Shown here: positions 4,516 to 45,015 of the stretch, one piece after another | Numbering within the stretch: position 1 is the stretch's first letter | Layout of the letters: each line of letters starts with the position of its first letter | Origin: a virus | IMG/VR virus record: IMGVR_UViG_3300009433_000010 | Span: 1-47,314 of that record | Reading direction: 5' to 3' (one strand) | Length of the DNA stretch: 47,314 nucleotides | Program-made: the position numbers and the translations under genes | The notes under the pieces: generated by a model | Told to the model about the DNA's origin: nothing | What the model saw: only the letters and a program-made list of their open reading frames with translations | The model's database searches: none

Positions 4516-4530
4516 ACTCCTTTTTTTATG

Positions 4531-4557
4531 ATAAATACTTCCTTCGAGGTATTTATA
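4531..4557. promoter_or_regulatory. Divergent pair of putative late-promoter TATTTATA boxes
   Basis: In the 56-bp gap between the divergent adhesin and 4572 genes, TATTTATA stands at 4550-4557 on the plus strand, 14 bases before the ATG at 4572. TATTTATC stands on the minus strand at 4537-4530, 14 bases before the ATG at 4515. The same box occurs before at least ten other genes here. It is the reverse complement of the T4 late box TATAAATA, and a gp55-like sigma factor is encoded at 16910. Promoter function is inferred. Confidence 0.5.
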
Positions 4558-4571
4558 GAAAAAAACTAAAT

Positions 4572-9654: not shown

Positions 9655-10083
9655 ATGAAAAAAACAATTGAACTAAAGACAACAACAGATGATGAGGGAT
9701 ATGCGAATAGTCCCACATTACCCGATGGATTAAAAAACTATCTAATAGATATTGATGGCACAATAACTGATGATGTACCTAACGAGGAACCTGAGCGTAT
9801 GAGACAAGTAATACCCTATGAGGGGTCAGTTGAAACTTTAAATGGATGGTTTGATGAAGGACATATTATAACCTTCTTTACCTCACGTACAGAAGAGGTG
9901 AGAGAAATAACCGAAGAGTGGTTAGACAAATGGGGATTCAAATATAGTAACCTATTAATGGGTAAACCTCGTGGTGGTAATTACCATTGGATTGATAATC
10001 ACATTGTTAGAGGTACTCGTTACAAGGGTCAGTGGACTGAGCTGACAAATAGAACGGTAGAAATTCAAGTATTTGACGACTAA
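9655..10083 (+). CDS. HAD-superfamily phosphatase
   Basis: A 142-residue compact HAD phosphatase. Motif I is IDIDGTITD (nucleophile Asp32, acid/base Asp34), motif II is FFTSR (Thr76/Ser77), motif III Lys104 lies in LMGKPRGG, and motif IV is HWIDNH (Asp114). The GGNYHWIDNH ending resembles small capsule- or sugar-phosphate phosphatases found beside glycosyltransferases, so a sugar-phosphate or nucleotide substrate is likely. It stands 10 bases after dut, the gap being a run of TTAA units, and shares TAATG with the following glycosyltransferase. The fold is clear; the substrate is inferred from context. Confidence 0.85.
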   Translation: MKKTIELKTTTDDEGYANSPTLPDGLKNYLIDIDGTITDDVPNEEPERMRQVIPYEGSVETLNGWFDEGHIITFFTSRTEEVREITEEWLDKWGFKYSNLLMGKPRGGNYHWIDNHIVRGTRYKGQWTELTNRTVEIQVFDD

Positions 10084-11474
10084 TGATTACAATAGGTTAT
10101 TGTACAAAGAAAGTAGACCCTGAATTTAGAGACTATATTGAAAAATCATCAGGTGTTCATAAGGTAGAAGTTATACCTTTTGAAAACCCTGGTACCCATT
10201 CTTTAAGTGAAGCCTACAATATAATTTTAGAAAAAGCAACTAATGATATTGTAGTGTTATGTCATGATGACTTATATTTTGAAAAAAAGAATTGGGGTAA
10301 TAAACTCCTAAAACATTTTAAACGGAACCCTGAGTACGGTATTTTAGGTGTAGCAGGAACTAAGTTCTTTCCTAAATCGGCTAGATGGTGGGAAATTAAT
10401 ACAGAAATGTTAGGGATAGTAAATCATCAACAAGGGGACAAAAAATGGACAAGTAAGTATAGCGAATCAAAAGGTAGTAAATTAGATGATAGTATTATTG
10501 TTGATGGTTTATTTATTGCAATAAATAAAAACAAAATAAAACATAATTTTGATGAGAGATTCGATGGTTTTCATTTCTACGATTTAGGATTTTGTTTTAA
10601 GAATTATATAGAAAATGTTAAAATTGGTGTATTATACGATATTAGAATCACTCATTTATCAATAGGTCAAACAAATCAAAAATGGGAAAGTAATAGATTA
10701 AAGTTTCTTACTTTTTATGAAGATAAATTACCAATCTTATTACCTACTTCATTTGATAAAAAACCAATTAAAAAGGGAGAACCCTTAGTCACTCTGGCCA
10801 TGCCGATATATAATTACGCTAAAAGATTAAATCCTACATTACAGTCAGTGTTTAACCAAGACTATACTAACTTTGAAATTACGATAGTTAATGACGGCTC
10901 TGATGATGAGTATTGTTTAATGAAATTAGATTCGTTAGAAGGACATGAGGGTATAAGAATAATACATAAAGAAAATACTGGTGTTTCTGACACTAGAAAT
11001 GTTGCGGTTAGAGAAGGTAAAGGTGAATATATATTACCTTTAGATGCCGATGACATGATACTACCAGATTATCTTAAAACAGGTGTCAACTTAATAAGAA
11101 AGAACCCTAAAATAAGTCCTGTTTATTGTGATACTATTCATGTAGGGGAAATGCAAGGATTAGAGAAAAGACCTGAATGGTCACCTGAAAGACTTTTATC
11201 GGGTCCATTTATTGTTAATAGTTCAATATATTCCCGTGAGGCTTATGAAAGTATTGAAGGGTATAACACCGAAATGAAAGGATGGGTTGATTATGATTTG
11301 TGGGTTCAAATGATGGATGCAGGATTTATAGGTAAGAGAATTCCTAAGGGACTATTTATATATTTCCATCACGAAAGTGAGGGAAAAGGTTCAGTTTCAA
11401 CCTCAGCTAGACAAAATATGAAACAATTACATAAAACAGTTTTAGATAGACATAAACTTAGGAATAATGAGTAA
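10083..11474 (+). CDS. Two-domain glycosyltransferase (StrF-like + GT2)
   Basis: A 463-residue fusion of two GT-A glycosyltransferase domains. Residues 1 to about 225 resemble the StrF-like group: DIVVLCHDDLYF near 58-69, GVAGTKFFPKSARWWE, and a terminal FDGFHFYDLGFCFKNY. Residues about 230-455 are a canonical GT2 domain: PLVTLAMPIYNYAKRL, ITIVNDGSDD, ENTGVSDTRN, and the metal-binding LPLDADDMILPDYL, then WVDYDLWVQMMDAG. Such enzymes use nucleotide sugars and divalent metal. Two active sites in one chain suggest building a disaccharide or repeating unit. It overlaps the next gene by 8 bases. Acceptor unknown. Confidence 0.88.
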   Translation: MITIGYCTKKVDPEFRDYIEKSSGVHKVEVIPFENPGTHSLSEAYNIILEKATNDIVVLCHDDLYFEKKNWGNKLLKHFKRNPEYGILGVAGTKFFPKSARWWEINTEMLGIVNHQQGDKKWTSKYSESKGSKLDDSIIVDGLFIAINKNKIKHNFDERFDGFHFYDLGFCFKNYIENVKIGVLYDIRITHLSIGQTNQKWESNRLKFLTFYEDKLPILLPTSFDKKPIKKGEPLVTLAMPIYNYAKRLNPTLQSVFNQDYTNFEITIVNDGSDDEYCLMKLDSLEGHEGIRIIHKENTGVSDTRNVAVREGKGEYILPLDADDMILPDYLKTGVNLIRKNPKISPVYCDTIHVGEMQGLEKRPEWSPERLLSGPFIVNSSIYSREAYESIEGYNTEMKGWVDYDLWVQMMDAGFIGKRIPKGLFIYFHHESEGKGSVSTSARQNMKQLHKTVLDRHKLRNNE

Positions 11475-15011: not shown

Positions 15012-16076
15012 ATGAATGAAGAAACAATATTAAAAGTAGAGCAATCTGTTAAAAATTTATCAGATAAAAGTTGTCGTATTTACTTTTTGTGTCAAGACAC
15101 TAAAGGTAACGCCAAGGCGGGAGTTAAAATGATATATGAGATGGCTTTAACTCTTAAAAATAACGGATTTAATACCATTATAATGCACGAAAAAAATGAC
15201 TATTATGGAGTAGAATCTTGGTTGGGTAAGGAATATTCTGAACTACCCCACTCATGTATTGAAAATCAAGATTTAAAGGTGTCTCCTGAAGATTTCATAG
15301 TAATACCTGAAGTTTATGGTCATGTCATGGAACAGATATCAAAACTTTCATGTGCTAAAATTGTCTTATGTCAGTCATATGACCACATGTTAGAGACTTT
15401 ACAACCAGGAACATCATGGTCGACTCATGGATTTACCAAGTGTATAACGACTAATGAAGCTCAAAAAGATTACATTAAAGACATTATGAAAAATGTGAGT
15501 TTTGACATTATACAACCATTAATAAGTGATGAGTACACCCCTAAAACTTTACCGTCTAAACCTATCGTATCTATACATACGAGGGAGCAGAGAGACACTA
15601 TGAAAATAATAAAAACATTCTATCTTAAGTACCCACAATATAGATGGATTACATTTAGAGATATGAGAGGTTTATCACCTGAAGAGTTTTCTGAATATTT
15701 AAAAGACTCATTCGTATCTGTATGGGTTGATGACACCTCAGGTTTTGGTACCTTCCCGTTAGAATCTATGATAACAAGAACACCTGTAATAGGTAAAGTA
15801 CCTAATTTAAAACCTGAATGGTTGAATGATAACAATGGTGTTTGGACATACGAACAGAACAACATTCACGATATCTTAGCTGAATTCATTCAAAATTGGT
15901 TGGAGGATAATATTAACGAGGAGCTTTACGATAAGGGTGTTGAAATGGGTAGTAAGTATAACGATAAGGAGTTGTTTACTGAAAAGGTAACGACATTATT
16001 TGATTCTTATATAAATCAAAGAAAAGATGTATTTAAGAGTCAATTAGAAAAAATAAAAGTTGAAGAAGAAGGATAA
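15012..16076 (+). CDS. Glycosyltransferase, GT-B fold
   Basis: A 354-residue GT-B-type enzyme. The N-terminal Rossmann half contains CRIYFLCQDTKGNAKAGVKM (about 21-40) and FIVIPEVYGHVME. The C-terminal half (from about 165) has IVSIHTREQR, then FVSVWVDDTSGFGTFPLESM (235-254), which is the donor-binding E-x-x-x-x-G/F-P-x-E motif of GT4-like enzymes. It then has TRTPVIGKVPNLKPEWL. The chain ends in a charged helix. The acceptor is unknown. It follows the small 14741 gene by one base and precedes a GT2-like gene by three. Confidence 0.82.
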   Translation: MNEETILKVEQSVKNLSDKSCRIYFLCQDTKGNAKAGVKMIYEMALTLKNNGFNTIIMHEKNDYYGVESWLGKEYSELPHSCIENQDLKVSPEDFIVIPEVYGHVMEQISKLSCAKIVLCQSYDHMLETLQPGTSWSTHGFTKCITTNEAQKDYIKDIMKNVSFDIIQPLISDEYTPKTLPSKPIVSIHTREQRDTMKIIKTFYLKYPQYRWITFRDMRGLSPEEFSEYLKDSFVSVWVDDTSGFGTFPLESMITRTPVIGKVPNLKPEWLNDNNGVWTYEQNNIHDILAEFIQNWLEDNINEELYDKGVEMGSKYNDKELFTEKVTTLFDSYINQRKDVFKSQLEKIKVEEEG

Positions 16077-16079
16077 AAA

Positions 16080-16910
16080 ATGGAAAACTTAAATATATCA
16101 GTAGTATTACCAATAGAGTCATCAAAACATAAAGGTTTTGACAATTTATTTAAATCATGTGTTATCTCTATTATAAATCAAGTTAAGGTCTGTCCCAAAA
16201 GAGGTCAGTGTGTGGAAGATATAGAATTGGTACTTGTTCATTCAGGTGAAGAGGGTTTAGAAACGTATATTAACAGTTTCGATTTCAGCGGTCTAACTAC
16301 GAATATTGTACATAATACAGGTGATACAGATTTTTGCAGTCAAATAAATTTGGGTGTGGAAAAGTCAACTAACGAATGGGTGAGTGTTTTTGAATTCGAT
16401 GACGAGTATTCTAGCATATGGTTTAAGAATGTTTCTAAATACATAGATTCGTATCCTGATGTAAAAGCGTTTTTACCTTTAGTGGTGGACACCGATGAAA
16501 AAGGAGTTTTTGCAGGATTTACAAATGAGGCTACTTTCGCAGCTAATATGAACAGTGAGATTGGTTACTTAACTAACGAAGTATTGTTAAATTACCAAAA
16601 CTTTCAAACAAGTGGAATGGTATTTAAAAAATCATTATTCGATGATTTCGGAGGGTTTAAAAAGTCGATTAAATTGACCTTCGTATATGAGTTGTTACTT
16701 AGATTGACTTATAACTCGACATCTATTATGACTATACCTAGAATTGGATATAAGCATTCTAATATGAGGGAAGGTTCAGTTTTTTGGAATTATAAGTTTG
16801 GTAATAACCCATTAACTCAGGACGAAGTTTCGTTTTGGATTGATTTAGCTAAAAAAGAACATTTCTTTAAGGAAGATAGAAATATAAAATATGAATTAGG
16901 TGAAGTTTAA
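16080..16910 (+). CDS. GT2-like glycosyltransferase
   Basis: A 276-residue GT-A protein: ISVVLPIESSKHKGFDNLF (5-23), the nucleotide-binding VLVHSGEEGLE, a DTDFCSQINLGVEKSTNEWV segment (82-101) and the metal-site-like VFEFDDEYSS (103-112). QTSGMVFKKSLFDDFGGF lies near 180, typical of GT2 C-terminal regions. The acidic triad reads D-D-E rather than D-x-D, so activity should be viewed with some caution. Its stop TAA shares a base with the ATG of the late sigma factor gene (TTTAATGG), linking glycan synthesis and late transcription in one transcript. Confidence 0.8.
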   Translation: MENLNISVVLPIESSKHKGFDNLFKSCVISIINQVKVCPKRGQCVEDIELVLVHSGEEGLETYINSFDFSGLTTNIVHNTGDTDFCSQINLGVEKSTNEWVSVFEFDDEYSSIWFKNVSKYIDSYPDVKAFLPLVVDTDEKGVFAGFTNEATFAANMNSEIGYLTNEVLLNYQNFQTSGMVFKKSLFDDFGGFKKSIKLTFVYELLLRLTYNSTSIMTIPRIGYKHSNMREGSVFWNYKFGNNPLTQDEVSFWIDLAKKEHFFKEDRNIKYELGEV

Positions 16911-17668
16911 TGGTTCTTACTGGAGACACCCTTACAGGGGAAACTAAAGACTCCGAAGTAAAAAAACGGGGGAGAAAAGCTAAATCTCAAAATTATTTTG
17001 ATGTTAGGGAAGAGAAGGCTGTGAGGATGTTCCTTACTGCTTCTACTTGGAATGAAAAAAATCAAATATATAATGAGTTTTTAAGGGCTCCTTTAGATAA
17101 AATGATTGAGTCAATAATTAGGAGATATAAGTTATATAGAAAAAATATGGACTTTATTGATATTCATAATGATACTCATTCATTTTTAATGACTAAGGTT
17201 GAAAAGTTTAAACCAGATAAGAATAAAAAGGCTTACTCATATTTTGGCACTATCTGTAAAAATTACTTGATGGGTCAAATCATAAAAGACCAAAAGGAAC
17301 AGAATAGGAAAATATCTTACGAGGATATTACAACTAAACTAGAGAGTAGACCAGATATGATTTATTATTTAGAATATGAAAAAGTTACCGCAGAACAAGT
17401 AATTAAAGAGTTTTTAAAGGAATTAGAAAAGTTCATAGAAAATACTTCGTTAAACAACAATGAATTAAAGTTAGGATACGCTCTATTAGAATTATTTGAG
17501 AATTATGAGGAGATATTCATAGGTACCGATAATAACAAGTTTAATAAAAATATTATTTTACTTTCATTACGTGAAATGACCAATATGAATACCAAGGAGA
17601 TTAGAACCTCTATGAAAAAATTTAAAAATTTATATTTTGACTTAACTGTTAAGTTGAATAACTTATAA
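16910..17668 (+). CDS. 55: gp55-like sigma factor for late transcription
   Basis: A 252-residue divergent sigma factor. Residues 60-130 form a sigma region 2: MIESIIRRYKLYR, DIHNDTHSFLMTKVEKF, KPDKNKKAYSYFGTICKNYL and MGQIIKDQKE, closely following the F-D/K-P-x-x-x-x-A-[YF]-SYF-x-x-I-x-KN-[YF] pattern of sigma factors and T4 gp55. The N-terminus has a basic KKRGRKAK patch. There is no clear region 4, as in gp55, which relies on co-activator gp33 and the sliding clamp instead. In T4, gp55 directs host RNA polymerase to late promoters with only a -10-like box. The matching box here is probably the recurring TATTTATA. Confidence 0.85.
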   Translation: MVLTGDTLTGETKDSEVKKRGRKAKSQNYFDVREEKAVRMFLTASTWNEKNQIYNEFLRAPLDKMIESIIRRYKLYRKNMDFIDIHNDTHSFLMTKVEKFKPDKNKKAYSYFGTICKNYLMGQIIKDQKEQNRKISYEDITTKLESRPDMIYYLEYEKVTAEQVIKEFLKELEKFIENTSLNNNELKLGYALLELFENYEEIFIGTDNNKFNKNIILLSLREMTNMNTKEIRTSMKKFKNLYFDLTVKLNNL

Positions 17669-25649: not shown

Positions 25650-27443
25650 TTATCTTAACTCTCTTAAGTCAAATGTTCTAACACCATCAACTGTAATCTT
25701 ACCGTAGAAACGGTTGTTCACCATCTTCTTAGCGTATCTTGTCATGATACCCTTGATTGGTGTAAAGTTGAATGGGTTGTACATTGTTGGAGTCAACTGT
25801 AGAGGTACGTATGGAGCGTATACATATCCTGTATCAAGTAATGATGTACCTTTGTGTCCCAACAATACTGTGTTTGGTGGGAAGTAAGGGTCACGGTAAA
25901 CTTGATATCTACCTGATAATGTACCAACTCTTTCGATACCCATGTTGTAGTTGTCCTGGTCAGGAGCCGCGTTTGAAACGTGGAAGTACTCAAGGTCATC
26001 GAAGATTGCTGAAATCTCTGAAGATACAACAATCCAGTTAGCACCACCTCTTAGAGTTGATTTATGGATTTGTGCAGAAACTTGATTGATTGCAGTAATC
26101 AATGTCTGATTCCAATCCTTTTGGTTGTAGTTGACAGAAGCGTTAGACACTCTCTTCCAACCGTTGTAGTCCCATCTTAATGACCAAGCCGCACCTTTTC
26201 TTAAGTCTCTCAAAATCTCACGGTCAATCTCTGCTGCAACCTGTTCTGACAACAATGCTGTCAATTCAGCTTCCGCATCGATGTTGTGGAATGCAGAGAC
26301 GTCTTGTGCGAGTTCTGGTGACCACTGAGCTCTTAACTTTCTTTCTGTAACAGAAACAGTAACAGCTTCTAAGTCAAATGAGACTTCACCGATAGCGTCT
26401 TCAAATTCTAACGTTGCATATACTCTGTATGAACCATAGAATGTATCACTATCAGCGATATCACTTCCTGTGTATCCGTCTAATGTTGGTGAGTTAATCG
26501 CAACTGGAGTTGAGAAGTCAACTTCCAAGTAGATTTTACCTTCAGCGTCACATACATTGTCGTACTTTCCGCCTGGACCTGGATAAGAACCACTATAGAA
26601 AGTAGTTTTTTGTTCTCCACCATAGTTAACGATACCTTTACCGTACTTCTGAGTTACAACTCTGAAGTTCCAGAAGGTACTACTGTTACCTAATCCTGCT
26701 ACGTCTGAAACTTCTAATGAAGCCAAGAAGTCTTCAGTGTCCATTTCTTGTCCGTCAGGACCGATTAATTTACTAGCACCCGCTGCTGAGAATCCTGTCA
26801 TCATAAAGATTAAAGACCTTACATTTGCAGTAGCCGCGGTACCTGTACCACCAGTTGCGTAACTTAAAGCAGTTCCTAATGTAACCGCACTTAACGCTCC
26901 ACCATTCCATATAACAGGAACTAATTCTGGTGTTTGCTCTTCGAAAGCACCCTTCGAGTAATCGAATAAACCAGCTGGGTCTGAATTTGGAGTACTACCT
27001 TCGTAAAATTGGTCATACAAGTTTGTGTTGTTAGTATAACCTGAAGTAGTAGTCGATGGTCCGTTTGGTGCTCCAAATGGAGGGATATGCGTTCCATCAG
27101 CGTTTCTGTTCTGAATCTTTGGTACAAAGTAGAACAACTTACCGATTGGTAGGTTCATAGCTTGAACTGAGACAATGTCGTTAGCCAATAACTTAGAGAA
27201 AACTCTTCTTACGATTGGAAAAACAACAGTCTCGAATGAACCTGAACTGTCAGATGAAGCTGCTTCGTTTATCAAATATGATGCTTGGTTCTCATATAAC
27301 TGAGCCATATTTTCTTTAGTGTGGCCTTTAAGACCGTCGAGGAACCCTAATTTGTCCCACTTGTTAATTGTGTCCTCTTTGATAACCTTAAGGTGCTTAA
27401 GACCGATGTTACCAACTAGACCTGATTCTAATAATGCTCCCAT
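25650..27443 (-). CDS. 23: gp23-like major capsid protein
   Basis: A 597-residue T4-type major capsid protein. The N-terminal region KENMAQLYENQASYLINEA (about 43-61) is the gp23 neck helix. VFPIVRRVFSKLLANDIVSV (about 74-93) followed by QAMNLPIGKLFYF matches the gp23 core (RRV-x-P-x-L-x-A-x-D-I-V-x-V-Q-x-M). The C-terminus PYVPLQLTPTMYNPFNFTPI, then GIMTRYA, matches the gp23 end. Subunits form hexamers of the icosahedral or prolate shell. LLE at residues 4-6 could be a gp21-type (L/I-x-E) processing site, so the removed propeptide would be very short. It lies 24 bases after the scaffold gene. Confidence 0.93.
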   Translation of the reverse strand: MGALLESGLVGNIGLKHLKVIKEDTINKWDKLGFLDGLKGHTKENMAQLYENQASYLINEAASSDSSGSFETVVFPIVRRVFSKLLANDIVSVQAMNLPIGKLFYFVPKIQNRNADGTHIPPFGAPNGPSTTTSGYTNNTNLYDQFYEGSTPNSDPAGLFDYSKGAFEEQTPELVPVIWNGGALSAVTLGTALSYATGGTGTAATANVRSLIFMMTGFSAAGASKLIGPDGQEMDTEDFLASLEVSDVAGLGNSSTFWNFRVVTQKYGKGIVNYGGEQKTTFYSGSYPGPGGKYDNVCDAEGKIYLEVDFSTPVAINSPTLDGYTGSDIADSDTFYGSYRVYATLEFEDAIGEVSFDLEAVTVSVTERKLRAQWSPELAQDVSAFHNIDAEAELTALLSEQVAAEIDREILRDLRKGAAWSLRWDYNGWKRVSNASVNYNQKDWNQTLITAINQVSAQIHKSTLRGGANWIVVSSEISAIFDDLEYFHVSNAAPDQDNYNMGIERVGTLSGRYQVYRDPYFPPNTVLLGHKGTSLLDTGYVYAPYVPLQLTPTMYNPFNFTPIKGIMTRYAKKMVNNRFYGKITVDGVRTFDLRELR

Positions 27444-29068: not shown

Positions 29069-29278
29069 TTACTCGTAAACCTCATCAATTTTACTTTCAA
29101 CACAAGCAGTGATTCTCCAATCATAAACGAAATCTTTAAAGTTTGTTGTAACTTTAGACTCAACATCTGTTACGTTATAACCCTTTACGAGTTTCTCCTC
29201 TCTGATTTTTTTAATTTTACCTGAGTTTTCATCGGGTAGGTCATACTGAACTTTTGCTACGAAATATTTTTCCTCCAT
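29069..29278 (-). CDS. DUF4494-like small protein
   Basis: A 69-residue protein reading EKYFVAKVQYDLPDENSGKI then KKIREEKLVKGYNVTDVESK, VTTNFKDF and a closing CVESKIDEVYE. The pattern (K-V-x-Y...K-K...E-x-x-L-V-x-x-x-x-x-x-x-A/V-E-x-x-V...I) resembles DUF4494, common in Bacteroidota phages, but I could not check it. It lies 19 bases downstream of the prohead protease gene and ends at a terminator. Function unknown. Confidence 0.65.
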   Translation of the reverse strand: MEEKYFVAKVQYDLPDENSGKIKKIREEKLVKGYNVTDVESKVTTNFKDFVYDWRITACVESKIDEVYE

Positions 29279-29297: not shown

Positions 29298-30020
29298 TTA
29301 ATAACCTAAATAATCGGAAAGTCTTTTCATTAAGTCAACACTTTTACCTAAACCACCGTCAATCTTTGGTTCTTGTGCCCTTAATTGAGTCTCTTCTTCT
29401 AAACTTTCTTCATACCTACCTTTATCATCTTTATTTAAGAAAAGGTACGCACCTGGTGTAGACGGAGATGAAACTAAATCAAAACAGATTAATTCGAAAT
29501 CTTCCTGTACTTCATTTCTTTCACCTTTCTTAACCAACGAACCAACACCACGAGAAGAAACCCCCATAGTAACCCCTTGTCTCATTAAGTTAGCTGCTTG
29601 GTCACCAGGACAGGATACAATACCCTTTTCATGGAAACCTGGTGAGGTTAATAACTTAATCTTACCCATAAGAGTATTACCTTCCCACCAAACATCAGTT
29701 ATAAGGTGAGAAACACGGTCTAAATCAATTAAAGACGATTCGGGGTGGTTAAGTTCTGAAATAGATAATCCTTTTTCGATAGCGGTTTTGTAAACATCGG
29801 CTTCCCTACGTAAAATCTTTTCGGGATAGACTCTACCGTTTCTGTTTGGGGTATCAAACTTTTGTAATGTTGCGTAAAACTCAAAAGGTTTTGAATGGTC
29901 TAATTGTCCGTAAGATTCCTTAATAACTTCAGCGTTACGACTATCGTTAGGATTTACAATCCCCGCGTCCCATTCTACTAAAATTCCCTTACCTAAATCG
30001 TTTGGTCCTAAAATCTTCAT
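29298..30020 (-). CDS. 21: gp21-like prohead protease
   Basis: A 240-residue His-Ser protease of the T4 gp21 type (herpes-assemblin-like fold). His92 sits in SELNHPE, the serine in MGVSSRGVGS (Ser155/156), and a third acidic residue is Asp181 in FELICFDLVSSPS. The N-terminus contains GRVYPEKIL. The enzyme cuts scaffold and capsid after L/I-x-E sites when the prohead is complete, allowing DNA packaging. It lies between the 147-aa gene at 30041 and the scaffold gene. A late box (30038-30031) precedes the start by 10 bases. Confidence 0.9.
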   Translation of the reverse strand: MKILGPNDLGKGILVEWDAGIVNPNDSRNAEVIKESYGQLDHSKPFEFYATLQKFDTPNRNGRVYPEKILRREADVYKTAIEKGLSISELNHPESSLIDLDRVSHLITDVWWEGNTLMGKIKLLTSPGFHEKGIVSCPGDQAANLMRQGVTMGVSSRGVGSLVKKGERNEVQEDFELICFDLVSSPSTPGAYLFLNKDDKGRYEESLEEETQLRAQEPKIDGGLGKSVDLMKRLSDYLGY

Positions 30021-30040: not shown

Positions 30041-30484
30041 TCAGACCACTTCTTTTGTCGTTTTACTCTTATGTATTTCGAAATATCTCATACCTCGTAA
30101 ACAGTCTGTATATACTGATTGTATTACTTTTTTAATATTGTTTTTAAGTAAGGGGGACTTAAATTCAAGGTGATTCTTTAGGTATAAAGTGATTTCTAAA
30201 CTCATAAAACTTCTTTTACCTCTCTGTATACCACTACTCCTCAAATCTAAATCTACGATATTATGTTTTTCAAATATTTCAGGGTTTAATATCTCTAATA
30301 AAACGTGTTTAATATTACGCTCCATCATCCCTGTCGCTCTATCCCAATTTTCAAACTCCCTTATGGGTTCTACCCATGACTGTAAAACTATGTATACTGT
30401 CTTTAAATTCTTCGCATCTACGGTGCCATAATGACACTTAGCATCACTGAATAATTTTAGTTGTGATGTTTTTCCTTTTTTCAT
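30041..30484 (-). CDS. Conserved-looking phage protein of unknown function
   Basis: A 147-residue protein: a basic N-terminus (MKKGKTSQLKLF), beta strands (LKTVYIVLQSWVEPIREFEN), a helix (RATGMMERNIKHVLLEIL), DLDLRSSGIQRGKRSFMSLE and a C-terminal helix. The pattern VDLDLRSSG near 96-104 resembles a nucleic-acid- or phosphate-binding turn but I cannot name a family. It sits between the portal-side genes and the protease, where T4 has prohead core genes 67 and 68; that position suggests head assembly, nothing more. Confidence 0.6.
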   Translation of the reverse strand: MKKGKTSQLKLFSDAKCHYGTVDAKNLKTVYIVLQSWVEPIREFENWDRATGMMERNIKHVLLEILNPEIFEKHNIVDLDLRSSGIQRGKRSFMSLEITLYLKNHLEFKSPLLKNNIKKVIQSVYTDCLRGMRYFEIHKSKTTKEVV

Positions 30485-30557
30485 ATAAATCCATACTTAT
30501 AATGTTTATTAGTTTTTATTAAATATACTATACTTGTTGTTATATGTCAAAGACGTA

Positions 30558-30565
30558 TATTTATA
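30558..30565 (+). promoter_or_regulatory. Putative late-promoter box before bS21 gene
   Basis: TATATTTATAG on the plus strand, with the box at 30558-30565, lies 17 bases before the ATG at 30583. It is in the same orientation as other boxes and supports expression of the isolated plus-strand bS21 gene. Confidence 0.5.
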
Positions 30566-30582
30566 GACAAACAATACTGTAA

Positions 30583-30768
30583 ATGCTAATAATTAAGGTA
30601 AAAAATAAAAACATTGAATCTGCTTTGAAGAACTATAAATCCAAGGTTTATAAAACTAAGCAACTTAAGAACCTTAATGAAAATAAAGAGTACACCAAAG
30701 ATTCCGTAAAAAAGAGAGAGGAAAAGAAGAAAGCAATTTACGTGAACAAGAAAAGAAACGACCTTTAA
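30583..30768 (+). CDS. rpsU: Ribosomal protein bS21 (phage-encoded)
   Basis: A 61-residue basic protein. MLIIKVKNKNIESALKNYKS matches the bS21 start (M-L/I-I-x-V-K...I-x-x-A-L-x-x-[YF]-K), and KTKQLKNLNENKEYTKDSVK with KKREEKKKAIYVNKKR matches the middle and tail, close to the length of Bacteroidota bS21 (about 64). bS21 binds the 30S platform near the 3' end of 16S rRNA. In Flavobacterium ribosomes it helps hide the anti-Shine-Dalgarno sequence, so a phage copy may exchange into host ribosomes and change message choice. It is a lone plus-strand gene within the minus-strand head module. Confidence 0.85.
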   Translation: MLIIKVKNKNIESALKNYKSKVYKTKQLKNLNENKEYTKDSVKKREEKKKAIYVNKKRNDL

Positions 30769-30866
30769 CTATTAGAATACCACTGGTCGAAAATATCCAA
30801 ATTTTTTCTTATCTCAGCGTAACTAACAGTAGTATTGGACCATTTAAGATATTTTCTGTCTGACAT
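30765..30866 (-). CDS. 33-aa small protein coupled to holin-like gene
   Basis: ATG 30866 to TAA 30765, 33 residues: MSDRKYLKWSNTTVSYAEIR then a short aromatic-rich end (NLDIFDQWYSNS). The start overlaps the preceding stop as TAATG, and the stop overlaps the bS21 stop in four bases (TTAA). Both edges fit the packing style of the region, which is the main support; the protein is too short to judge. It could be a holin partner. Confidence 0.42.
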   Translation of the reverse strand: MSDRKYLKWSNTTVSYAEIRKNLDIFDQWYSNS

Positions 30867-31099
30867 TATTCTTCGACTCCTCTATTCCTTGAAAATTTTT
30901 CAAGTGTGGTGAATCCTAGTCCGGCTCCAACAATATACATCATACCATCCCAAACATATCTTTGTAGAGGTATTTCCATAAAGATGTTGGATATAAATGC
31001 AATACACATCATTACAAAGGCAAATAACGTAATTATTCTTTTAGATGATTTTTGCCCATCTACATCATTAAGGATAGAACCTAAAAATTTTCTTATCAT
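30866..31099 (-). CDS. Holin-like two-helix membrane protein
   Basis: A 77-residue protein with two likely membrane helices at about 21-40 (RIITLFAFVMMCIAFISNIF) and 50-66 (WDGMMYIVGAGLGFTTL), a charged N-terminus and basic C-terminus (EKFSRNRG). The layout matches small class II holins, which make the lesion that frees the lysis enzyme. The start overlaps the preceding stop as ATGA. No endolysin is visible in the window. It could also be a general membrane protein; the label is by topology. Confidence 0.6.
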   Translation of the reverse strand: MIRKFLGSILNDVDGQKSSKRIITLFAFVMMCIAFISNIFMEIPLQRYVWDGMMYIVGAGLGFTTLEKFSRNRGVEE

Positions 31100-31830
31100 A
31101 ACCCTTTTTCTAACTGTTTTAATTTGTACAGTGAGGTAAGGGTATAATCAGTTTCGTTTATTTTATTTAAAGTTTTTTGAATTTTTTCTTTAAGTTCTTC
31201 ATCGTTAGATTCATTTAAGTTATTACTTAATTTGTTAGAAACAGATGTTTTATACTTATTAATTTCTTCAAATAGTTCTGTTTTATCTAATGATGTAAAA
31301 AATTTAAATTCTTTCTTTTCTTCTTCATTAAGATTAGAAAACTCATTATTAAATGTTTTTGTGGCGATTTGTAACATCGAAGATATAGGTATATTGAGTG
31401 TCGACTCATTTACCTCGACAACTTCAGAACTAAGTAAAGTTTTTTTAATTCTATTTTTTGACTCAAGTAATGATTCTAAGTTTTTAGTTACATTTTTAGT
31501 GTAAACTTGAATATCAATATCGTTATAAACATTATTATTCTCAATAACTAATTGGTCAATCCACTGATTAATCTTATTAATCTCATTCTGATTATCATTG
31601 ATTAAATTTCTTAATTGTTCGAATGACTCGGAAATATAATCGTCCACAATATCCTCGTTTAGACCTTTTTTAGATGATAATTCATCATATATAAAATATA
31701 CCTCACATAAATCACTATTTTCAAGTATCATAGATTTAAATGATTTAATATGGTTTTTGAACTCAGGTTTTCCGTAAGTAGATTCTAATAACCTTTCAAT
31801 CTTAGTTTTAATAATTCCGAATGATGTCAT
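31096..31830 (-). CDS. Unknown coiled-coil protein in head cluster
   Basis: A 244-residue helical protein rich in Asn, Glu and Lys, with several heptad-like stretches (EINKINQWIDQLVIENNNVY, then KNLESLLESKNRIKKTLL and LKEKIQKTLNKINETD). It lies between the portal and the holin-like gene, where T4 has prohead core genes. It is probably an elongated assembly or scaffold factor, but no family was recognised. A TATTTATA box (31850-31843) lies 12 bases upstream. Confidence 0.65.
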   Translation of the reverse strand: MTSFGIIKTKIERLLESTYGKPEFKNHIKSFKSMILENSDLCEVYFIYDELSSKKGLNEDIVDDYISESFEQLRNLINDNQNEINKINQWIDQLVIENNNVYNDIDIQVYTKNVTKNLESLLESKNRIKKTLLSSEVVEVNESTLNIPISSMLQIATKTFNNEFSNLNEEEKKEFKFFTSLDKTELFEEINKYKTSVSNKLSNNLNESNDEELKEKIQKTLNKINETDYTLTSLYKLKQLEKGL

Positions 31831-31875: not shown

Positions 31876-33753
31876 TTAGTCTTTCAGAAGGGCGTTAAGT
31901 TCCTTTTCTATTTCACCTAAAGACTCTCTACCTTTAGATAAATCTAATATACTTTTACCTTTAATCAGGTCGTCCTCAACTAATAAATCTAAATCTTTAT
32001 TTCTTACTAATCTTTCAGCTGGGATTTCTTCGGGGGTGATATCCTCCCCACCTGAATCTCCTCCTAAATCTCCTCCTAAATCACCACCTAAATCACCACC
32101 TAAATCACCACCTAAGTCTAAATCACCACCTGATGGAGGACTTCCTAAGTCACCCACACCTGAGTCGGTTGTTTCATCACCTAGAGGGTCACCACCTTCA
32201 CCTGGTTTATTACCATATAATTTATCTATGTTGGCAAATACACCAGTCTTACTTATTATCTCCGAAGTTTTTTCTAACTCACTTGCAACTGCTTTTTCAA
32301 TTCTCTGTTGTTGTAAGTCTAACTTAATTTCCTCATCACTAAACCCAAGTATATGTTTTTTAGCCCAAGATGAAGAAACTGGTAATATACCGTTACCTGG
32401 GTCTGAAACAGCATCTCTATATAACTGAATCTTCTGTTGCCACTGCTCAACCTTAAGTAATTCTGCCTGTGTAGACGGATTAGTAAGCCCTAAAGTAAAA
32501 TTACCTAACTCATCCTCAAAACCTAAAAGATATAAATGTATTATTGCGATTTTATTCAGTTCTTGAATCATTGATTTTTGAATCCTGTTAATCGTTCTAG
32601 CGAATCTTATATCTTGTAATGATAAGTTTTTACCATCACCAACAACTTCTTCAAAACCTAAGAAAGCTTTAGGAACTCTTAAAGACGTTAATAATTTTTT
32701 CTGTATATACTCAATATCTGCAATTTCAGACAGGTTCTGAGCACCTGGTAATGTGTCTATTGGATTAGGTGCGTTAGGGTCCCTAACAGGAATAAAGTAA
32801 TCTTGGTCTACCGCCATTTGATTATACCTTAAGTCAACATTACCATTCGTTGAATCAACTACTTGGTCTCTCTTAAACTTATTCGCAACTCGGTTTACGT
32901 ATGGTTCGACATCTTTGTCGTCCATGTTTCCAACAAATACTTTAAATACTCTTCTCTCAGGGGCTCTTGAAGTTCTATATATTAACATAGCGTCTTCTGA
33001 TAGTATCAATTGTTTCCAAATACGTCTACCTTTTTCCAACATAGAGGTACCGTATGGAAGTTTTCTGTCATCACCTAGTAATCTAAAGTGGGCGATTTCC
33101 CACGTATTAAATTCCATGTCCTTGGTTTGCCATATGAACTTTAATGCGTCGTTTTCAGTACTTGTAGAGTTTCTCTCTGGCTTCATTTTCATACCCCTCT
33201 CTTGTCTAGTGATTTCGATGTTAGGTAATTGTTGAGCTCCCATAATACCTTTTTCAGGGTCTAATTTTAGGTACACAAAGTTATCACCATATTTACATGT
33301 GTTTCTTGTCCACATAGGTAAGTTGGTATTAATGTCTAATCTGTTGTTAAATAAGTCACCTAAAACAGATTTAATTCTTTTACTCTCAGAATATATCTGT
33401 AACATATAACCATCTTCATCAGGTGTAGTGGACTCTTCTGCATATATATCCAAGGCTGCGGATATTTCAGGAGTGTATTCCATACTCTCGTAGTCGTAGA
33501 AAGACGCTAAACGAGTCGGTTCATAATAAACCGCTTGGGTATATAAATTATTTTCAATCTTTTGCCATTGCTGACCTAAGTATAATGTTTGTTGTGCCTG
33601 TAACTTTTCTTTTTCATACTCTTGTTTGTTGGTGGTCTTGAGTATTTCTTTTTTATCAAAGTTATAAACGGGGGCTTGTTGGTCTAGAGTTGAGTCAGGA
33701 CCAAAAACTTTGGTGAGTCTTTGCCAAATTGTAAAATCGTTGTTTTTCGCCAT
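31876..33753 (-). CDS. 20: gp20-like portal protein
   Basis: A 625-residue portal of the T4 gp20 type. The middle contains EYTPEISAALDIYAEESTTP (reading EISAALDIYAEEST near 92-105), FIWQTKDMEFNTWEIAHFRL (about 205-224), LPYGTSMLEKGRRIWKQLIL, EDAMLIYRTSRAPERRVF and QKKLLTSLRVPKAFLGFEE, in the order of the gp20 clip, wing and stem. The C-terminal 130 residues are Gly/Asp-rich repeats and acidic. The portal is the unique vertex through which terminase pumps DNA and to which the neck attaches. A TATTTATC box is 9 bases upstream. Confidence 0.9.
   Translation of the reverse strand: MAKNNDFTIWQRLTKVFGPDSTLDQQAPVYNFDKKEILKTTNKQEYEKEKLQAQQTLYLGQQWQKIENNLYTQAVYYEPTRLASFYDYESMEYTPEISAALDIYAEESTTPDEDGYMLQIYSESKRIKSVLGDLFNNRLDINTNLPMWTRNTCKYGDNFVYLKLDPEKGIMGAQQLPNIEITRQERGMKMKPERNSTSTENDALKFIWQTKDMEFNTWEIAHFRLLGDDRKLPYGTSMLEKGRRIWKQLILSEDAMLIYRTSRAPERRVFKVFVGNMDDKDVEPYVNRVANKFKRDQVVDSTNGNVDLRYNQMAVDQDYFIPVRDPNAPNPIDTLPGAQNLSEIADIEYIQKKLLTSLRVPKAFLGFEEVVGDGKNLSLQDIRFARTINRIQKSMIQELNKIAIIHLYLLGFEDELGNFTLGLTNPSTQAELLKVEQWQQKIQLYRDAVSDPGNGILPVSSSWAKKHILGFSDEEIKLDLQQQRIEKAVASELEKTSEIISKTGVFANIDKLYGNKPGEGGDPLGDETTDSGVGDLGSPPSGGDLDLGGDLGGDLGGDLGGDLGGDSGGEDITPEEIPAERLVRNKDLDLLVEDDLIKGKSILDLSKGRESLGEIEKELNALLKD
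32055..32117 (-). repeat. 12-bp GGDL repeats in portal C-terminus
   Basis: Near-perfect 12-bp units encoding GGDL (GGDLGGDLGGDLGGDLGGDS) with one interruption (DLDLGGDLGG). The tail joins the acidic Asp/Glu part of the portal. Variation in copy number would not change the reading frame. Confidence 0.85.
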
Positions 33754-33796: not shown

Positions 33797-35572
33797 TTAT
33801 CTCCTTCCCCCACCAAATAACCAATTATATTGTTCATAATCTTGTCTTGTTATTCCGTTAGGTCTGTGATGATTGTTGTTGTTTGGCATAACCGGTATTC
33901 CAGGATTAAATTCTTTTGAACTATTTTTTACAGGTGTCTCGTTAACCATCCAACTTTCCATCATTGCCTTCGTTTGTTCGGTGACTTTTTCCAATTTTGT
34001 GAATGAATTATCCCCTACATATATTGCCATAGCCATTGCCATTATTAAATCGTCGTGTTGACCCTTTATGTGGTCAGGTCTTCCATTAATATAAACAAAA
34101 GTATTTAATTCGTTAATCAAACGAGATGACCTTACAATAAAATTGTGTCTCAAAGATTCTTCAAAAGACGCGACTATTTGTACTCTTTTTGAATTAAAAT
34201 TTAAACCTGGAATTTTATCCACTGTGTTAGGATTGTATTTCCATTTATCTGCAGTGTTTGTACCCTCAACATATAAGTCTTTATAGTTCATTTCCTGAAG
34301 CTTACGTGAGGTGGATACCCCCATACCACCTGTTATATCAATAACAACAAAAGCGGAATACATAGTAGCCCATTTAAAAGCTATCTCGGCAGCAACATCA
34401 GGAGGAACCTTACCCAGATACTCTAATACCTGCTCCCTCTCATCAAAATCTATAATACAGAAAGTCGTAAAATCCTCACTATCACCACGAGAAACATCAA
34501 TACCCATAATGTATTTGTGCCCAACAACAGGTTCCTTCCATTGCCATAATGCACCTCCCATAAATTTATTTTCAGGTTCACGAATAAAATTTTCTTTAAT
34601 TTTTTCTATCGTATCGCTTGGTATTACATTGTCACCTGAACCTAAGAAGTTACACTCTAATTCCTGTGCAATCTTACGTCTATCAAACTTAAGTTTTTTT
34701 GCCATACCCTCAAACCAAGAAGAATATGGCTTATAACCATCTAAGGAATGTTTTTTAATTTCTTCAAAATCTCTTTCCATAGGGTCTACAGATGTATAAT
34801 CAATTGTAATTTCTTCATCATTATAATCCTCCCTATTTAACATGTAATGAACAATATCGTTACATTTAATAAGTTTTAAATCTTTAGCGTACCTAGGGTC
34901 ACGGTACCAAAACATTTCAGTAATCTTGAAGTCATTCATCCCCCTTAAACACTGGTCGTAAATAGAGTAATATATACGGTCAAATCCATTGGGGGTTGAT
35001 ATAACAATTACCTTACCTCCTGTAGATAGTGACGCCATACACGCTGACCAAAAGTCATTATCAGCCTCAATAAATGCCGCCTCGTCAAATACGAGTATTG
35101 TTGGTGTATACCCTCTAAGTGCGTCTTTAGAAGTTGCAACTGACTTTACCTCACATCCATTTGTAAGTTTGTAATGTCTTTGTGAATTTTTCTCATTTGA
35201 GAAATTTACACCGAACCAACTGGGCCATTGTTCAATAAATGCACGTATCTTACCTGCCATCTCAACAGAGGTGTCAAGTTTGTTCGCAATTATTAGAATT
35301 TTTTCAGGTTTCGATTTGGACGCCGTAACTAATTTTTTTGACACCCATGCAGACGTTACTGTTGAGACACCGGCCTGTCTGTACTTTAGGGCGATATTTT
35401 CTTCATGAGTGTCGTAGTCTTTAATTAAACTATCTTGGTCGGGAAATAACCTTAAAGGAACATACTTTGATTGCGTGTTGTCGTAAGTTTGTAGATATGT
35501 CCTTAATGCATACGAGGTGTCTTTTACACACCTCGCATACTCTAATAATACTTTTTCTTTTGTTAACGCCAT
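33797..35572 (-). CDS. 17: gp17-like large terminase subunit
   Basis: A 591-residue packaging motor. The ATPase half has Walker A-like KYRQAGVST (63-71), Walker B ILVFDEAAFIE (159-169) and coupling motif ISTPNG (191-196). The nuclease half has Asp359 in MGIDVSRGDSEDFT, Asp412 in VIDITGGMGVST and Asp507/Asp508 in KGQHDDLIMAMAMA. The protein translocates DNA into the prohead through the portal and cuts the concatemer. It lies 43 bases upstream of the portal gene; T4 has sheath and tube genes at this point, absent here. No small terminase was recognised in the window. Confidence 0.95.
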   Translation of the reverse strand: MALTKEKVLLEYARCVKDTSYALRTYLQTYDNTQSKYVPLRLFPDQDSLIKDYDTHEENIALKYRQAGVSTVTSAWVSKKLVTASKSKPEKILIIANKLDTSVEMAGKIRAFIEQWPSWFGVNFSNEKNSQRHYKLTNGCEVKSVATSKDALRGYTPTILVFDEAAFIEADNDFWSACMASLSTGGKVIVISTPNGFDRIYYSIYDQCLRGMNDFKITEMFWYRDPRYAKDLKLIKCNDIVHYMLNREDYNDEEITIDYTSVDPMERDFEEIKKHSLDGYKPYSSWFEGMAKKLKFDRRKIAQELECNFLGSGDNVIPSDTIEKIKENFIREPENKFMGGALWQWKEPVVGHKYIMGIDVSRGDSEDFTTFCIIDFDEREQVLEYLGKVPPDVAAEIAFKWATMYSAFVVIDITGGMGVSTSRKLQEMNYKDLYVEGTNTADKWKYNPNTVDKIPGLNFNSKRVQIVASFEESLRHNFIVRSSRLINELNTFVYINGRPDHIKGQHDDLIMAMAMAIYVGDNSFTKLEKVTEQTKAMMESWMVNETPVKNSSKEFNPGIPVMPNNNNHHRPNGITRQDYEQYNWLFGGGRR

Positions 35573-39721: not shown

Positions 39722-40462
39722 TTACTTTAAATTTTCTTGTATAGAAAGGTTCTTATCTATCAAATCATTTTTATTATCAAACAATTTTTGAATATATCCG
39801 TTACGTCTTAAAAATTTAAAAACTAAGTTTTCGTAAGAATATTCACCCCCTTTTTCTAAACCACTAGTCCTAAATTTTTTAATTTTATCTTTTACGGAAT
39901 CTAACATTTCTACTGAATTCTCTAAATCACCAACCTCCAAATCTTCTATTGTATTATCAATGATGTCCATCCATTGTTGTGATTTATCTTCTATTTTCTT
40001 TTTATCTATCTTAACTTCTTTTGGTTCAGGTCTTTCTAACCACTCGTCGTATAAAACAGAGTACACACCAGTGGACATGTGAGGTTCATTCATGTCTTGA
40101 ACGTACAACTCAACTTCATAACCTTTTACTGTTATGTCGTGTTGCGAGTTAAATATAGTCTTTTTTAAATTAAATAAATCTTTGAATAATTCTTCTTGCT
40201 CTCCTGATTCCTTAAAATCATATATAATGTGTAAATCTATATCTGAGTAGTCCGACCAATTGAAGTTTGCTAATGAGCCTGTCATTGTAACATCTTGAAC
40301 AAAAATATCAAACCCCAAGAATTCTATGAACTCATTTGCAATCTCTAATAAACCGTCTCTTATCTCGGACTTCATTTTTGATTCTTCAATATTATCGTGG
40401 TCACTCCAAATCTCAGAATTCAAAGAATCTTTAACAAAAAAACTACTAATTATATTATCCAT
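39722..40462 (-). CDS. Minimal nucleotidyltransferase-fold protein
   Basis: A 246-residue protein with the nucleotidyltransferase signature TMTGSLANFNWSDYSDIDLH (59-78): Gly62-Ser63 and the metal-binding Asp74-x-Asp76. A later acidic residue in the ELYVQDMNE strand (about 118) could be the third ligand. The C-terminal half is helical (IEDLEVGDLENSVEMLDSVK). Family members transfer a nucleotide to RNA, protein or a small molecule; the substrate here is unknown. It overlaps the KTSC gene by eight bases, which suggests joint function. Confidence 0.75.
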   Translation of the reverse strand: MDNIISSFFVKDSLNSEIWSDHDNIEESKMKSEIRDGLLEIANEFIEFLGFDIFVQDVTMTGSLANFNWSDYSDIDLHIIYDFKESGEQEELFKDLFNLKKTIFNSQHDITVKGYEVELYVQDMNEPHMSTGVYSVLYDEWLERPEPKEVKIDKKKIEDKSQQWMDIIDNTIEDLEVGDLENSVEMLDSVKDKIKKFRTSGLEKGGEYSYENLVFKFLRRNGYIQKLFDNKNDLIDKNLSIQENLK

Positions 40463-41864: not shown

Positions 41865-43883
41865 ATGATTGAATCAGTAGACCCAAACGACAAAGGACCG
41901 AGAAAAAAGAAAGAACAGAGTACATCTAAGACACCTGTACTTGATAATTTTTCTAGAGATTTAATTAAACTAGCATCTGAGGGAAAACTCGACCCAGTAA
42001 TTGGTAGGGACAGTGAGATTAAAAGAATCGCTCAGATTCTTTCTCGTAGGAAAAAGAATAATCCAATTATAATCGGTGAACCTGGTTGTGGTAAAACCGC
42101 AATCGTTGAAGGTTTGGCTATGAAGATTTTTGAGGGTGATTGTCCTCAAAATCTCTGTGATAAAAGACTCGTGTCTTTAGATATGACTTCTATAGTTGCG
42201 GGTACCAAATACCGTGGACAATTTGAGGAAAGACTTAAGGTAATTCTTGATGAACTTCAAGATAATAACGATATTATTATCTTCATTGATGAAATTCACA
42301 CTATTATCGGTGCAGGTAATACATCTGGTTCCCTTGACGCTTCTAACATTTTTAAACCCGCATTGGCACGAGGTGAACTACAATGTGTTGGAGCGACCAC
42401 TCTTGATGAATACCGTGAGAACATCGAGAAGGACGGTGCCTTGGAACGAAGATTTCAAAAGGTAATGGTTGATGGTTCAACTACCGAAGAGACGTTAGAG
42501 ATACTTCAGAATCTAAAATCTCGTTATGAGGACCACCATAAAGTAATATATACTGATAAAGCTCTTCAGACTTGTGTAACACTCGCAGACCGTTACGTAA
42601 CTAATAGGGAGTTCCCTGATAAGGCAATCGATATTATGGATGAGGTTGGCGCCAGAGCTCAAATCAACATTAAACTTCCTGAAATTATTGAAGAACTACG
42701 TAATGAAGCTCTTGAAATTAAGGATAAAAAGATTCAAGTAGTAAAAAGTCAAAAATATGAAGAAGCTGCTCAACTTCGTGACCGTGAGCGAAAGATTATA
42801 GAAAAATTAGAGTACGAAAAAAATATCTTCGACTCTAAAAAAGATGAGGAACGTAAAGAAATTACTGAAGATATGATTTACGATGTTGTTTCACATATGA
42901 CTAAAATACCCCTATCTAAGTTGAACGCGGAGGATAAAGAAGGTTTGTTGGATTTGGAGAATAATCTTAATTCCTCAGTTATTGGTCAAGAAGAAGCGGT
43001 TAAAACGATTTCAAAGGCAATCCGTAGAAACCGTGTAGGTATTAAAGACCCTAATCGACCAATCGGTTCGTTTATCTTCTTGGGTTCTACAGGTATTGGT
43101 AAGACACACTTAGCTAAACAATTAGCGAAAGAAATATTTGGAGATGAAGAGTCCTTAATTCGTGTAGATATGTCTGAGTACCAAGAAAAGTTCTCTATGA
43201 GTAGATTGATTGGTTCACCTCCAGGTTATGTTGGGTACGACCAAGGAGGTCAATTAACCGAAGCAGTTAAAAACAAACCATACTCTGTAGTATTGTTTGA
43301 TGAGATTGAAAAGGCAAACAAGGACATCTTTTCCATCCTACTACAAATGATGGATGACGGTCACCTAACAGATTCTTTCGGTAGAAAAATTAATTTTAGA
43401 AACTGTCTAATTATTATGACTTCTAACTTAGGTGTTAAGAAACTTCAGGACTTCGGTTCAGGTGTTGGATTCGATACTACCACACGAATCTCAAATAATG
43501 AAGCGATGAAAAAGTCTTTGTTGGAGAAAGAATTGAAGAACCATTTTACTCCTGAGTTCTTGAATCGTGTAGATGAGGTAGTGGTGTTTAATCCTCTCAG
43601 AGAGAGCGAAGTAGAACAAATCGTGGAGATTGAGTTGTCAAAACTAAACCGTAGACTTGACCGACTAGGTTATGTAGTGTCCATCGATAAAAAAGTTAAA
43701 AAGTTCTTATCAGAGGTAGGTTTTGATGAAAAATACGGGGCAAGACCAATTAAAAGAGCAATTCAAGAGAAAATCGAAGATTTGATTTCAGAAGAAGTTC
43801 TTAGAGGTAATATCGTTGAGGGGTTATCTTGTAAGTTGAAAATGAAAGGAGAAGAGGAGGTTGTTTTAGAAAAGGGGAAATAA
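41865..43883 (+). CDS. clpC-like: ClpC-like double AAA+ unfoldase without N-domain
   Basis: A 672-residue Hsp100 protein with two AAA+ modules. D1: Walker [10 protein letters not shown] (71-79), pore loop KYRG (115-118), Walker [10 protein letters not shown] (137-145), arginine fingers in ALERRFQ (192-198). A short UVR-like middle segment lies at 283-311 ([17 protein letters not shown]). D2: Walker A GSTGIGKT (407-414), pore loop GYVGYDQGG (454-462), Walker B VVLFDEIE (475-482), arginine finger Arg568. GSGVGFDT (531-538) matches the ClpP-docking loop ([LIV]-G-[FL]) of ClpA/ClpC. The usual N-terminal substrate domain is missing. It would use ATP to unfold proteins, probably for host ClpP. Confidence 0.93.
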
Positions 43884-43897: not shown

Positions 43898-43926
43898 GTT
43901 TTAATGAAATATTTGTTGTATATTTG
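43895..43926 (+). promoter_or_regulatory. Bacteroidota-type promoter (TTTG-N20-TATATTTG)
   Basis: TTTG at 43895-43898 and TATATTTG at 43919-43926, spacing 20, fit the Bacteroidota promoter consensus exactly. The ATG of the peptidase lies 18 bases after the -7 box, so the leader is very short. The -33 box is embedded in the terminator U-run of the Clp gene. Confidence 0.78.
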
Positions 43927-43944
43927 TATATAAATCAACCACAA

Positions 43945-45015
43945 ATGAACAACGAACAACTTAATCGTCTCAAAGAAGTACTTTCAATCCCAACCAAAAC
44001 CTATAAGGAAGATGGGATGGTAGACTACATTATTAATATTCTTGAGACAATTGATGGTGTAACGTATTACAATGACCCGATGAATAACGTTTACGCCACT
44101 AAAGGTACATTACCTGATGGTGAGTTTTATCCGATGTTTGTTGCACATACTGATACGGTTCATGAACTGGTTGAAGACATTGTTGTTGAGGAGGAGAATC
44201 TCGAAAAACCACCCACTTTTGGTCGAACGTTTACTGAAGAACTAAACTTATCTCTAAAGGGATACACTCCACAAGGGAATCCAACGGGAATCGGTGGTGA
44301 CGATAAATGTGGTGTTTTTTTGGCACTCGAACTCCTTCGCACTTTGTCACATGTAAAGGTCGGTCTTTTCGTATCTGAAGAGACTGGTTGCCACGGCTCG
44401 AAAGAGTGTGATGTGGAGTTCCTTAAAGACGTGGGATATGCGATTCAATTTGACGCACCTGGAAATCATTTAATTACCGAAGTTTGTTCGGGGGTTCGTT
44501 TATATGAAAATAAAGGTGATTTTATTAGTCGTATTATCCCCGTCTTTGAAAACACAATGGGTGTTTCCCCTTATCAACAGTCACACCCCTATACCGATGT
44601 ATCTCAAATCAAAATGAAGGGTGACTTCTCTTGTATCAACTTCTCTTGTGGTTACTACAACATGCATACCTCTTCTGAGTTTGTTGTTGTAAAAGACGTG
44701 GAAGACGCCTTTAACTTAGCCGTTGGAGTTGTAAAAGAACTCGGTAATAGTAAGTTTAACTATACTTACGTTCGTCCTACTACTGATTACTACAGTCAAG
44801 GTAATTTGTTTGCTAACTACGAAGATGAAGATGAGGATGATTGTTACGATTACCCTGATTGGGTTGACGGTGATAACCACTACTTTCACATCTCTGAAAG
44901 TGAACTTGAGATTGAGTCTAAATCCACCGGTGATGTAGTGTCTTTGAGTTTAAAGGATATGGGTGAGTTGTACCTCCTTATTCGGGAGCGTCTGTTGGAG
45001 AATGAAGAGGTTTAA
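43945..45015 (+). CDS. M20 metallopeptidase, PepT-like
   Basis: A 356-residue zinc peptidase with the full M20 ligand set: His68-x-Asp70 in FVAHTDTVH, Asp119/120 in GIGGDDKCG, Glu145/146 in FVSEETGCHGS, Asp170 in IQFDAPG, and His241 in CGYYNMHTSSE. The order and the H-x-D-T-V / E-E / SEE-T pattern match the tripeptidase T branch. It would cut small peptides to amino acids in the cytoplasm. I chose ATG 43945; a TTG at 43924 lies within the promoter. It follows the Clp-like gene, and its stop overlaps the convergent gene's stop in TTAA. The C-terminal 70 residues include a D/E-rich stretch (NYEDEDEDDCYDYPDWVDGD). Confidence 0.88.
   Translation: MNNEQLNRLKEVLSIPTKTYKEDGMVDYIINILETIDGVTYYNDPMNNVYATKGTLPDGEFYPMFVAHTDTVHELVEDIVVEEENLEKPPTFGRTFTEELNLSLKGYTPQGNPTGIGGDDKCGVFLALELLRTLSHVKVGLFVSEETGCHGSKECDVEFLKDVGYAIQFDAPGNHLITEVCSGVRLYENKGDFISRIIPVFENTMGVSPYQQSHPYTDVSQIKMKGDFSCINFSCGYYNMHTSSEFVVVKDVEDAFNLAVGVVKELGNSKFNYTYVRPTTDYYSQGNLFANYEDEDEDDCYDYPDWVDGDNHYFHISESELEIESKSTGDVVSLSLKDMGELYLLIRERLLENEEV

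Follow-up and report, generated by a model that had tools for sequence, protein, structure and literature searches.

Genes and gene order around bS21

The window, that is, the whole 47,314-base linear IMG/VR record analysed here, contains a single match to PF01165, an ORF that begins with ATG, ends with TAA and encodes a 61 aa bS21 protein (Table 1). The match scores 39.4 bits (E 4.8e-10) against a curated cut-off of 27 bits and covers positions 2-54 of the 55 in the Pfam profile; the full-length bS21 read from the letters in an earlier note on this DNA is therefore found exactly where that note had placed it. The AF2 model of the protein has two helices, spanning residues 11-33 and 40-60, and the nearest solved structures are the bS21 chains 9i5v and 7jil, the latter from the F. 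johnsoniae ribosome. In a Foldseek search with this model, six of the seven matches were ribosomal chains of S21 size, all of them weak (E of at least 0.5). Close relatives are encoded by 44 stretches of viral contigs, the median dN/dS of the phage clade is ~0.045 (a rough figure, with synonymous sites near saturation), and the gene order around bS21 is kept in nearly all of ~90 distinct loci. For these three reasons the ORF is not a chance occurrence, and the gene is under strong purifying selection.

Table 1. Features at the bS21 locus and the candidate sigma factor gene, in window coordinates
Feature	Position	Strand	Remarks
Candidate late sigma factor, weak sigma-70 region 2	16910..17668	+	PF04542 E 0.014, below cut-off
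Major capsid protein (MCP)	25650..27443	-	phrog_138, E 2.1e-66
Acidic scaffold-like protein, 493 aa	27468..28949	-	between protease and MCP
p69, DUF4494 domain	29069..29278	-	PF14902 above cut-off
Prohead protease	29298..30020	-	phrog_207, E 1.9e-41
CN147, divergent neighbour of bS21	30041..30484	-	next to bS21 in nearly all loci
Host-type promoter TTGACA-17-TATATT of CN147	30522..30550	-	11/12 matches
Late-type promoter box of bS21 (putative), TATTTATA	30561..30568	+	14 nt before ATG
Very short SD-less leader of bS21	30569..30582	+	predicted transcript start
Phage bS21 gene	30583..30768	+	PF01165 above cut-off; residue table against 97 cellular proteins; two AF2 helices
d77, small protein convergent with bS21	30866..31099	-	
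d244, conserved hypothetical with late-type box	31096..31830	-	
Portal protein	31876..33753	-	phrog_213, E 2.6e-66
Terminase large subunit (TerL)	33797..35572	-	phrog_2, E 2.4e-38

The bS21 gene is read from the strand opposite to the TerL-portal-protease-scaffold-MCP block that surrounds it. The same arrangement is described by Chen et al. 2022 (PMC9723584) for bS21-encoding Bacteroidetes jumbo myoviruses of clades a-e, in which hypothetical genes also flank bS21 on both sides and Bacteroidota hosts were likewise inferred. The gene is real, and the kind of phage that carries bS21 in such a position is already in the literature through that paper. The genomes reported there measure ~293-331 kb, as against the 47-kb linear fragment available here. 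Because a relative with a 90% identical TerL, linear too, is 270 kb long, the window probably represents part of a jumbo phage genome. Ten long relatives each contain one copy of bS21. By MCP (~42% identity) and TerL (~26%), the nearest isolate relatives are the Flavobacterium phages immuto; megablast of the bS21 region against isolate phages gave no match. These isolate relatives, together with the TTG-N17-22-TAnnTTTG promoters of the 270-kb relative, support the assignment to phages that infect Bacteroidota, in keeping with the label of Bacteroidota-type phage given earlier.

The CN147 protein probably corresponds to bS21_CN of Chen et al. When its sequences from 33 diverse phages are aligned, 22 columns are invariant, and its AF2 model is of the alpha/beta type (pLDDT 85.8). 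A structure search returned no PDB match below E 0.001, and neither Pfam nor the isolate phages yielded a match; for want of a convincing match in any of the three, the attempt to assign a function from structure was dropped. On the other side of bS21, the stretch leading to d77 varies among relatives and is ~1 kb longer in some (L005, L026, L038). A 33 aa ORF at 30766-30866 (- strand) has a stop codon that overlaps that of bS21, and GAGGAG precedes its ATG.

Elsewhere in the window, glycosyltransferase-like genes at 7133-8347, 10083-11474 and 15012-16910 (all + strand) are scattered among genes of nucleotide metabolism, and a nucleotidyltransferase or poly(A) polymerase-like protein is encoded at 39722-40462 (- strand), its PF01909 match barely above the cut-off. 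A very long ORF at 1-4581 (- strand), of at least 1526 aa, runs off the end of the record and has almost no family match; it may encode a tail or fibre protein.

Residues of phage and cellular bS21

Phage bS21 proteins (88 distinct sequences) were aligned with 97 distinct ones from cellular Bacteroidia, and their residues were compared in F. johnsoniae numbering. The cellular sample leans to Flavobacterium and near relatives, which made up 80 of the 137 loci present before duplicates were removed. In the bS21 tree the two sets split without exception, with a support of 0.99. Position 21 is Arg or Lys in 97/97 cellular and 0/88 phage proteins, and position 24 is Asp or Glu with the same counts. 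Gln occupies position 28 in 85/88 phage proteins and in none of the 97 from cells, while Lys or Arg at position 27 is found in 87/88 and 10/97, respectively. The window protein bears the phage signature S20-K-V-Y-K-T-K-Q27, which places S, V, Y and Q at positions 21, 23, 24 and 28, where cells have R/K, mostly F, D/E and mostly T/V. These altered residues map to the last part of helix 1 and the turn that follows, away from the Tyr54 shield. Tyr54, represented by Tyr53 in the window protein, is kept in 87/88 phage proteins and is replaced by His in the remaining one. With Tyr54 kept and positions 21, 24, 27 and 28 changed, phage bS21 retains the shield residue, while the helix 1 end and the adjoining turn are rewritten.

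The earlier note had spoken of altered residues and had proposed an alignment with host bS21, above all at the contacts with the 16S 3' end. The alteration is borne out by the perfect split at positions 21 and 24 and lies at the end of helix 1 and its turn; the shield residue Tyr54 is conserved in the alignment. The phages of Chen et al. 2022 have an aromatic residue at position 54, here Tyr, and share with the window protein the divergence at positions 21, 23, 24/25 and 28 (PMC9723584). As a strict discriminant between phage and cellular proteins, drawn from a larger set than that of the paper, positions 21 and 24 appear to be new.

Promoter boxes and leaders

A TATTTAT box is located 5-23 nt before the ATG in 78/90 phage bS21 genes. 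The same box precedes the genes for the protease (79/81 leaders), portal (77/82), d244 (88/93) and scaffold (74/84) and is nearly absent upstream of p69 (0/77), MCP (1/53), d77 (0/24) and CN147 (3/85), all counts being taken over related sequences and hence not independent trials. Of all 8-mers upstream of genes in the 270-kb relative, ATATTTAT has the strongest strand bias (42 sense vs 9 antisense), and in the window it shares first place (9 sense vs 1 antisense). Against shuffles of the same leaders, the box occurs 8 times in the window, with 0.67 expected, and 40 times in the 270-kb relative, with 4.8 expected; these shuffles and the absence of the box from the p69, MCP and CN147 leaders rule it out as a chance product of AT-richness. 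The late box of the T4 type has the sense form TATAAATA. A box of that type and sense was considered and rejected, as the sense-enriched form here is TATTTATA instead.

Genes of the ATATTTAT class, which include those for the portal, a head-tail adaptor and a protease, have no TTG at -33. A second promoter class of the 270-kb relative is of host type, TTG-N17-22-TAnnTTTG, and precedes genes for DNA polymerase, a Clp-like ATPase, polynucleotide kinase and a methylase. The host-type motif is present in 74/94 CN147 leaders vs 0/95 protease leaders; in the window, the host-type promoter of CN147 stands back to back with the late-type box of bS21. Judged by its position and company, the TATTTATA/TATTTAT box is likely to be a late promoter that gives very short leaders, and its presence at both bS21 and head genes suggests that these would be expressed late together. 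The distribution of the box predicts the transcription units protease-p69 and scaffold-MCP, which agree with pairs found to be co-transcribed in the RNA reads of Chen et al. 2022, and late transcription of bS21 is itself a trait of those phages (PMC9723584). The divergent sigma-70 region 2-like protein listed in Table 1 is possibly the late sigma factor; it is 89% identical to its counterpart in the 270-kb relative (G001:103613-104347), for which the PF04542 match reaches E 7.6e-4.

The leader of the window bS21 gene lacks a Shine-Dalgarno sequence (SD), as had been claimed: its duplex with the anti-SD is calculated at +0.5 kcal/mol. By the same calculation, Flavobacterium-type rpsU leaders have an extended SD in 80/80 loci (-17.1 to -19.1 kcal/mol). 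Pairing below -13 kcal/mol, the mark of the extended SD in SD-autoregulated rpsU (McNutt et al. 2023, PMC9976891), is found in 0/90 phage genes, the window gene falling outside it as well. The Flavobacteriales rpsU of that study encodes the same protein family with the same shield tyrosine, whereas the phage gene has no SD, a late-type box and a rewritten end of helix 1. The contrast with the cellular gene drawn in the earlier note thus stands against Flavobacterium but not Bacteroidia-wide, where 3 of the 27 rpsU leaders sampled fall below -13 kcal/mol; for this phage, it holds only if the host has rpsU of the SD type.

Nor is an SD-less bS21 gene universal among the phages. Pairing is weaker than -7 kcal/mol in 82 of the 90 distinct phage genes, as in the window, but lies below this value in the other eight, which include one neighbouring group at -7.3 to -9.1 kcal/mol (L037, L039, L040, L043, L044 and L073) and a second at -12.2 kcal/mol (L360/L374). 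At most SD-bearing loci the SD of bS21 is the strongest of all genes, and the CN147 tree shows about four switches in SD state. Because of these two groups, escape from autoregulation cannot be generalised to all bS21 phages. Over all phage genes, SDs occur at the level expected by chance from shuffles of the same leaders. Comparison with upstream mock windows had suggested that SDs are avoided, a claim that was dropped when the shuffled leaders gave the chance level.

Possible role of phage bS21 in host ribosomes

In F. johnsoniae, loss of bS21 or the change Y54A increases translation of rpsU and decreases SD-less initiation, and Y54A raises SD-dependent translation (PMC9976891). The earlier note had allowed that a phage bS21 might either keep or open the shield over the anti-SD. 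With Tyr54 retained and SDs at chance level, an opened anti-SD would bring the phage no obvious gain, and for this reason the data favour a phage bS21 that keeps the shield.

Building on the observed gene, context, residues, box and missing SD, we tentatively propose that a TATTTATA promoter of its own would drive bS21 late, together with the head genes, and yield an mRNA whose SD-less leader is very short. The protein would replace host bS21 in host 30S subunits, and its conserved C-terminal helix and tyrosine would keep the 16S 3' tail sequestered. As ribosomes that lack bS21, and so have an exposed anti-SD, boost rpsU of a Flavobacterium-type host, ribosomes filled with phage bS21 would damp the synthesis of host bS21; the phage mRNA would be immune, and phage bS21 could take over. 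The changes at the end of helix 1 (positions 21-28) may set these ribosomes apart at the mRNA channel in a phage-specific way, the likeliest effect being improved initiation on the short-leader, SD-less late mRNAs of the phage. Late synthesis and 30S exchange follow published precedent (PMC9723584, PMC6375957), and the retained shield follows from Tyr54 together with the lack of SD use by the phage; the transcript start, incorporation into the 30S subunit, repression of rpsU and mRNA preference are what we infer.

In favour of this proposal are the identity of bS21, purifying selection, the conserved Tyr54, the split at positions 21 and 24, the box common to capsid genes, the agreement of its boundaries with the transcription units in the RNA data, the different promoter of the neighbouring gene, the candidate sigma factor, the SD contrast with rpsU, the chance level of SDs in phage genes and the effects of bS21 loss and Y54A in F. 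johnsoniae. The bS21 of Pelagibacter phage HTVC008M (Mizuno et al. 2019, PMC6375957), likewise borne by a myovirus but of an alphaproteobacterial lineage, has been shown to enter E. coli ribosomes, whereas the present case is made from sequence. This sole phage bS21 to be tested leaves E. coli ribosomes with ~5% activity, which counts against the proposal, as do the two phage groups with an SD before bS21 and the many Bacteroidia without an rpsU SD. Taken as a whole, with a functional phage bS21 gene as one of its parts, we give the proposal a little less than an even chance. That the phage specifically exploits the host feedback circuit, with rpsU turned off, the SD-less phage mRNA exempt, the host copy diluted and late ribosomes of phage type, is somewhat less probable still. 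In the two SD-bearing groups, the SD would tie the output of phage bS21 to ribosomes empty of the host protein.

Other roles for the protein were weighed against the same evidence. It could simply make good host bS21 that is lost or limiting late in infection and leave the choice of mRNA unchanged, a role to which the retained core residues, the late-type box common to structural genes (PMC9723584) and the exchange of bS21 between ribosomes (PMC6375957) are all well suited; the strict phage-only residues across divergent clades (cellular type at 21 and 24 in 0/88 vs 97/97) suggest a specific, altered role, and simple supply is rather unlikely. The near inactivity of E. coli ribosomes with pelagiphage bS21 (PMC6375957) would also fit a poison that shuts off host translation, and a function outside the ribosome, such as packaging in the head, is in line with the place of the gene in the head module and was raised for virions by Chen et al. 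(PMC9723584). Late timing suits synthesis better than shut-off, however, and the core residues of the family, Tyr54 included, are conserved, which makes this pair of roles improbable. Least probable is a phage bS21 that enters ribosomes, frees the anti-SD and favours SD-bearing phage messages: the rewriting at positions 21, 23, 24, 27 and 28 and the few phage groups with SDs, strongest before bS21 itself, would accord with it, but Tyr54 is kept in 87/88 proteins, the SDs of phage genes are at chance level, and portal and protease start from very short, AT-rich leaders.

That phage bS21 may redirect ribosomes is, as a general idea, already published (PMC9723584, PMC9976891). Four elements appear new: the box of late type, the survey of leaders together with its exceptions, the residues that strictly separate phage from cellular proteins, and the hypothesis of takeover by feedback. 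No earlier report of any of these was found in the open-licence literature, and the accessible text of Chen et al. 2022 (PMC9723584) contains no mention of the box, an SD survey of leaders or strict discriminants at positions 21, 24 and 28. A vague published idea is thereby divided into parts that can each be tested: residues 21/24/28 vs Tyr54, the box TATTTATA, and whether or not an SD precedes phage bS21. The reporters and bS21 mutants needed already exist in F. johnsoniae (PMC9976891). If true, the proposal would provide an example from nature of a virus that makes specialised ribosomes by way of the host's own bS21 feedback.

Phages of this kind have been speculated to encode a protease against host bS21 (McNutt et al., PMC9976891). 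In the window, genes for a Clp-type AAA+ unfoldase (41865-43883, + strand) and an M42-like peptidase (43924-45015, + strand) adjoin each other, and this pair is a candidate for such a protease; the counterparts of both in the 270-kb relative have host-type promoters.
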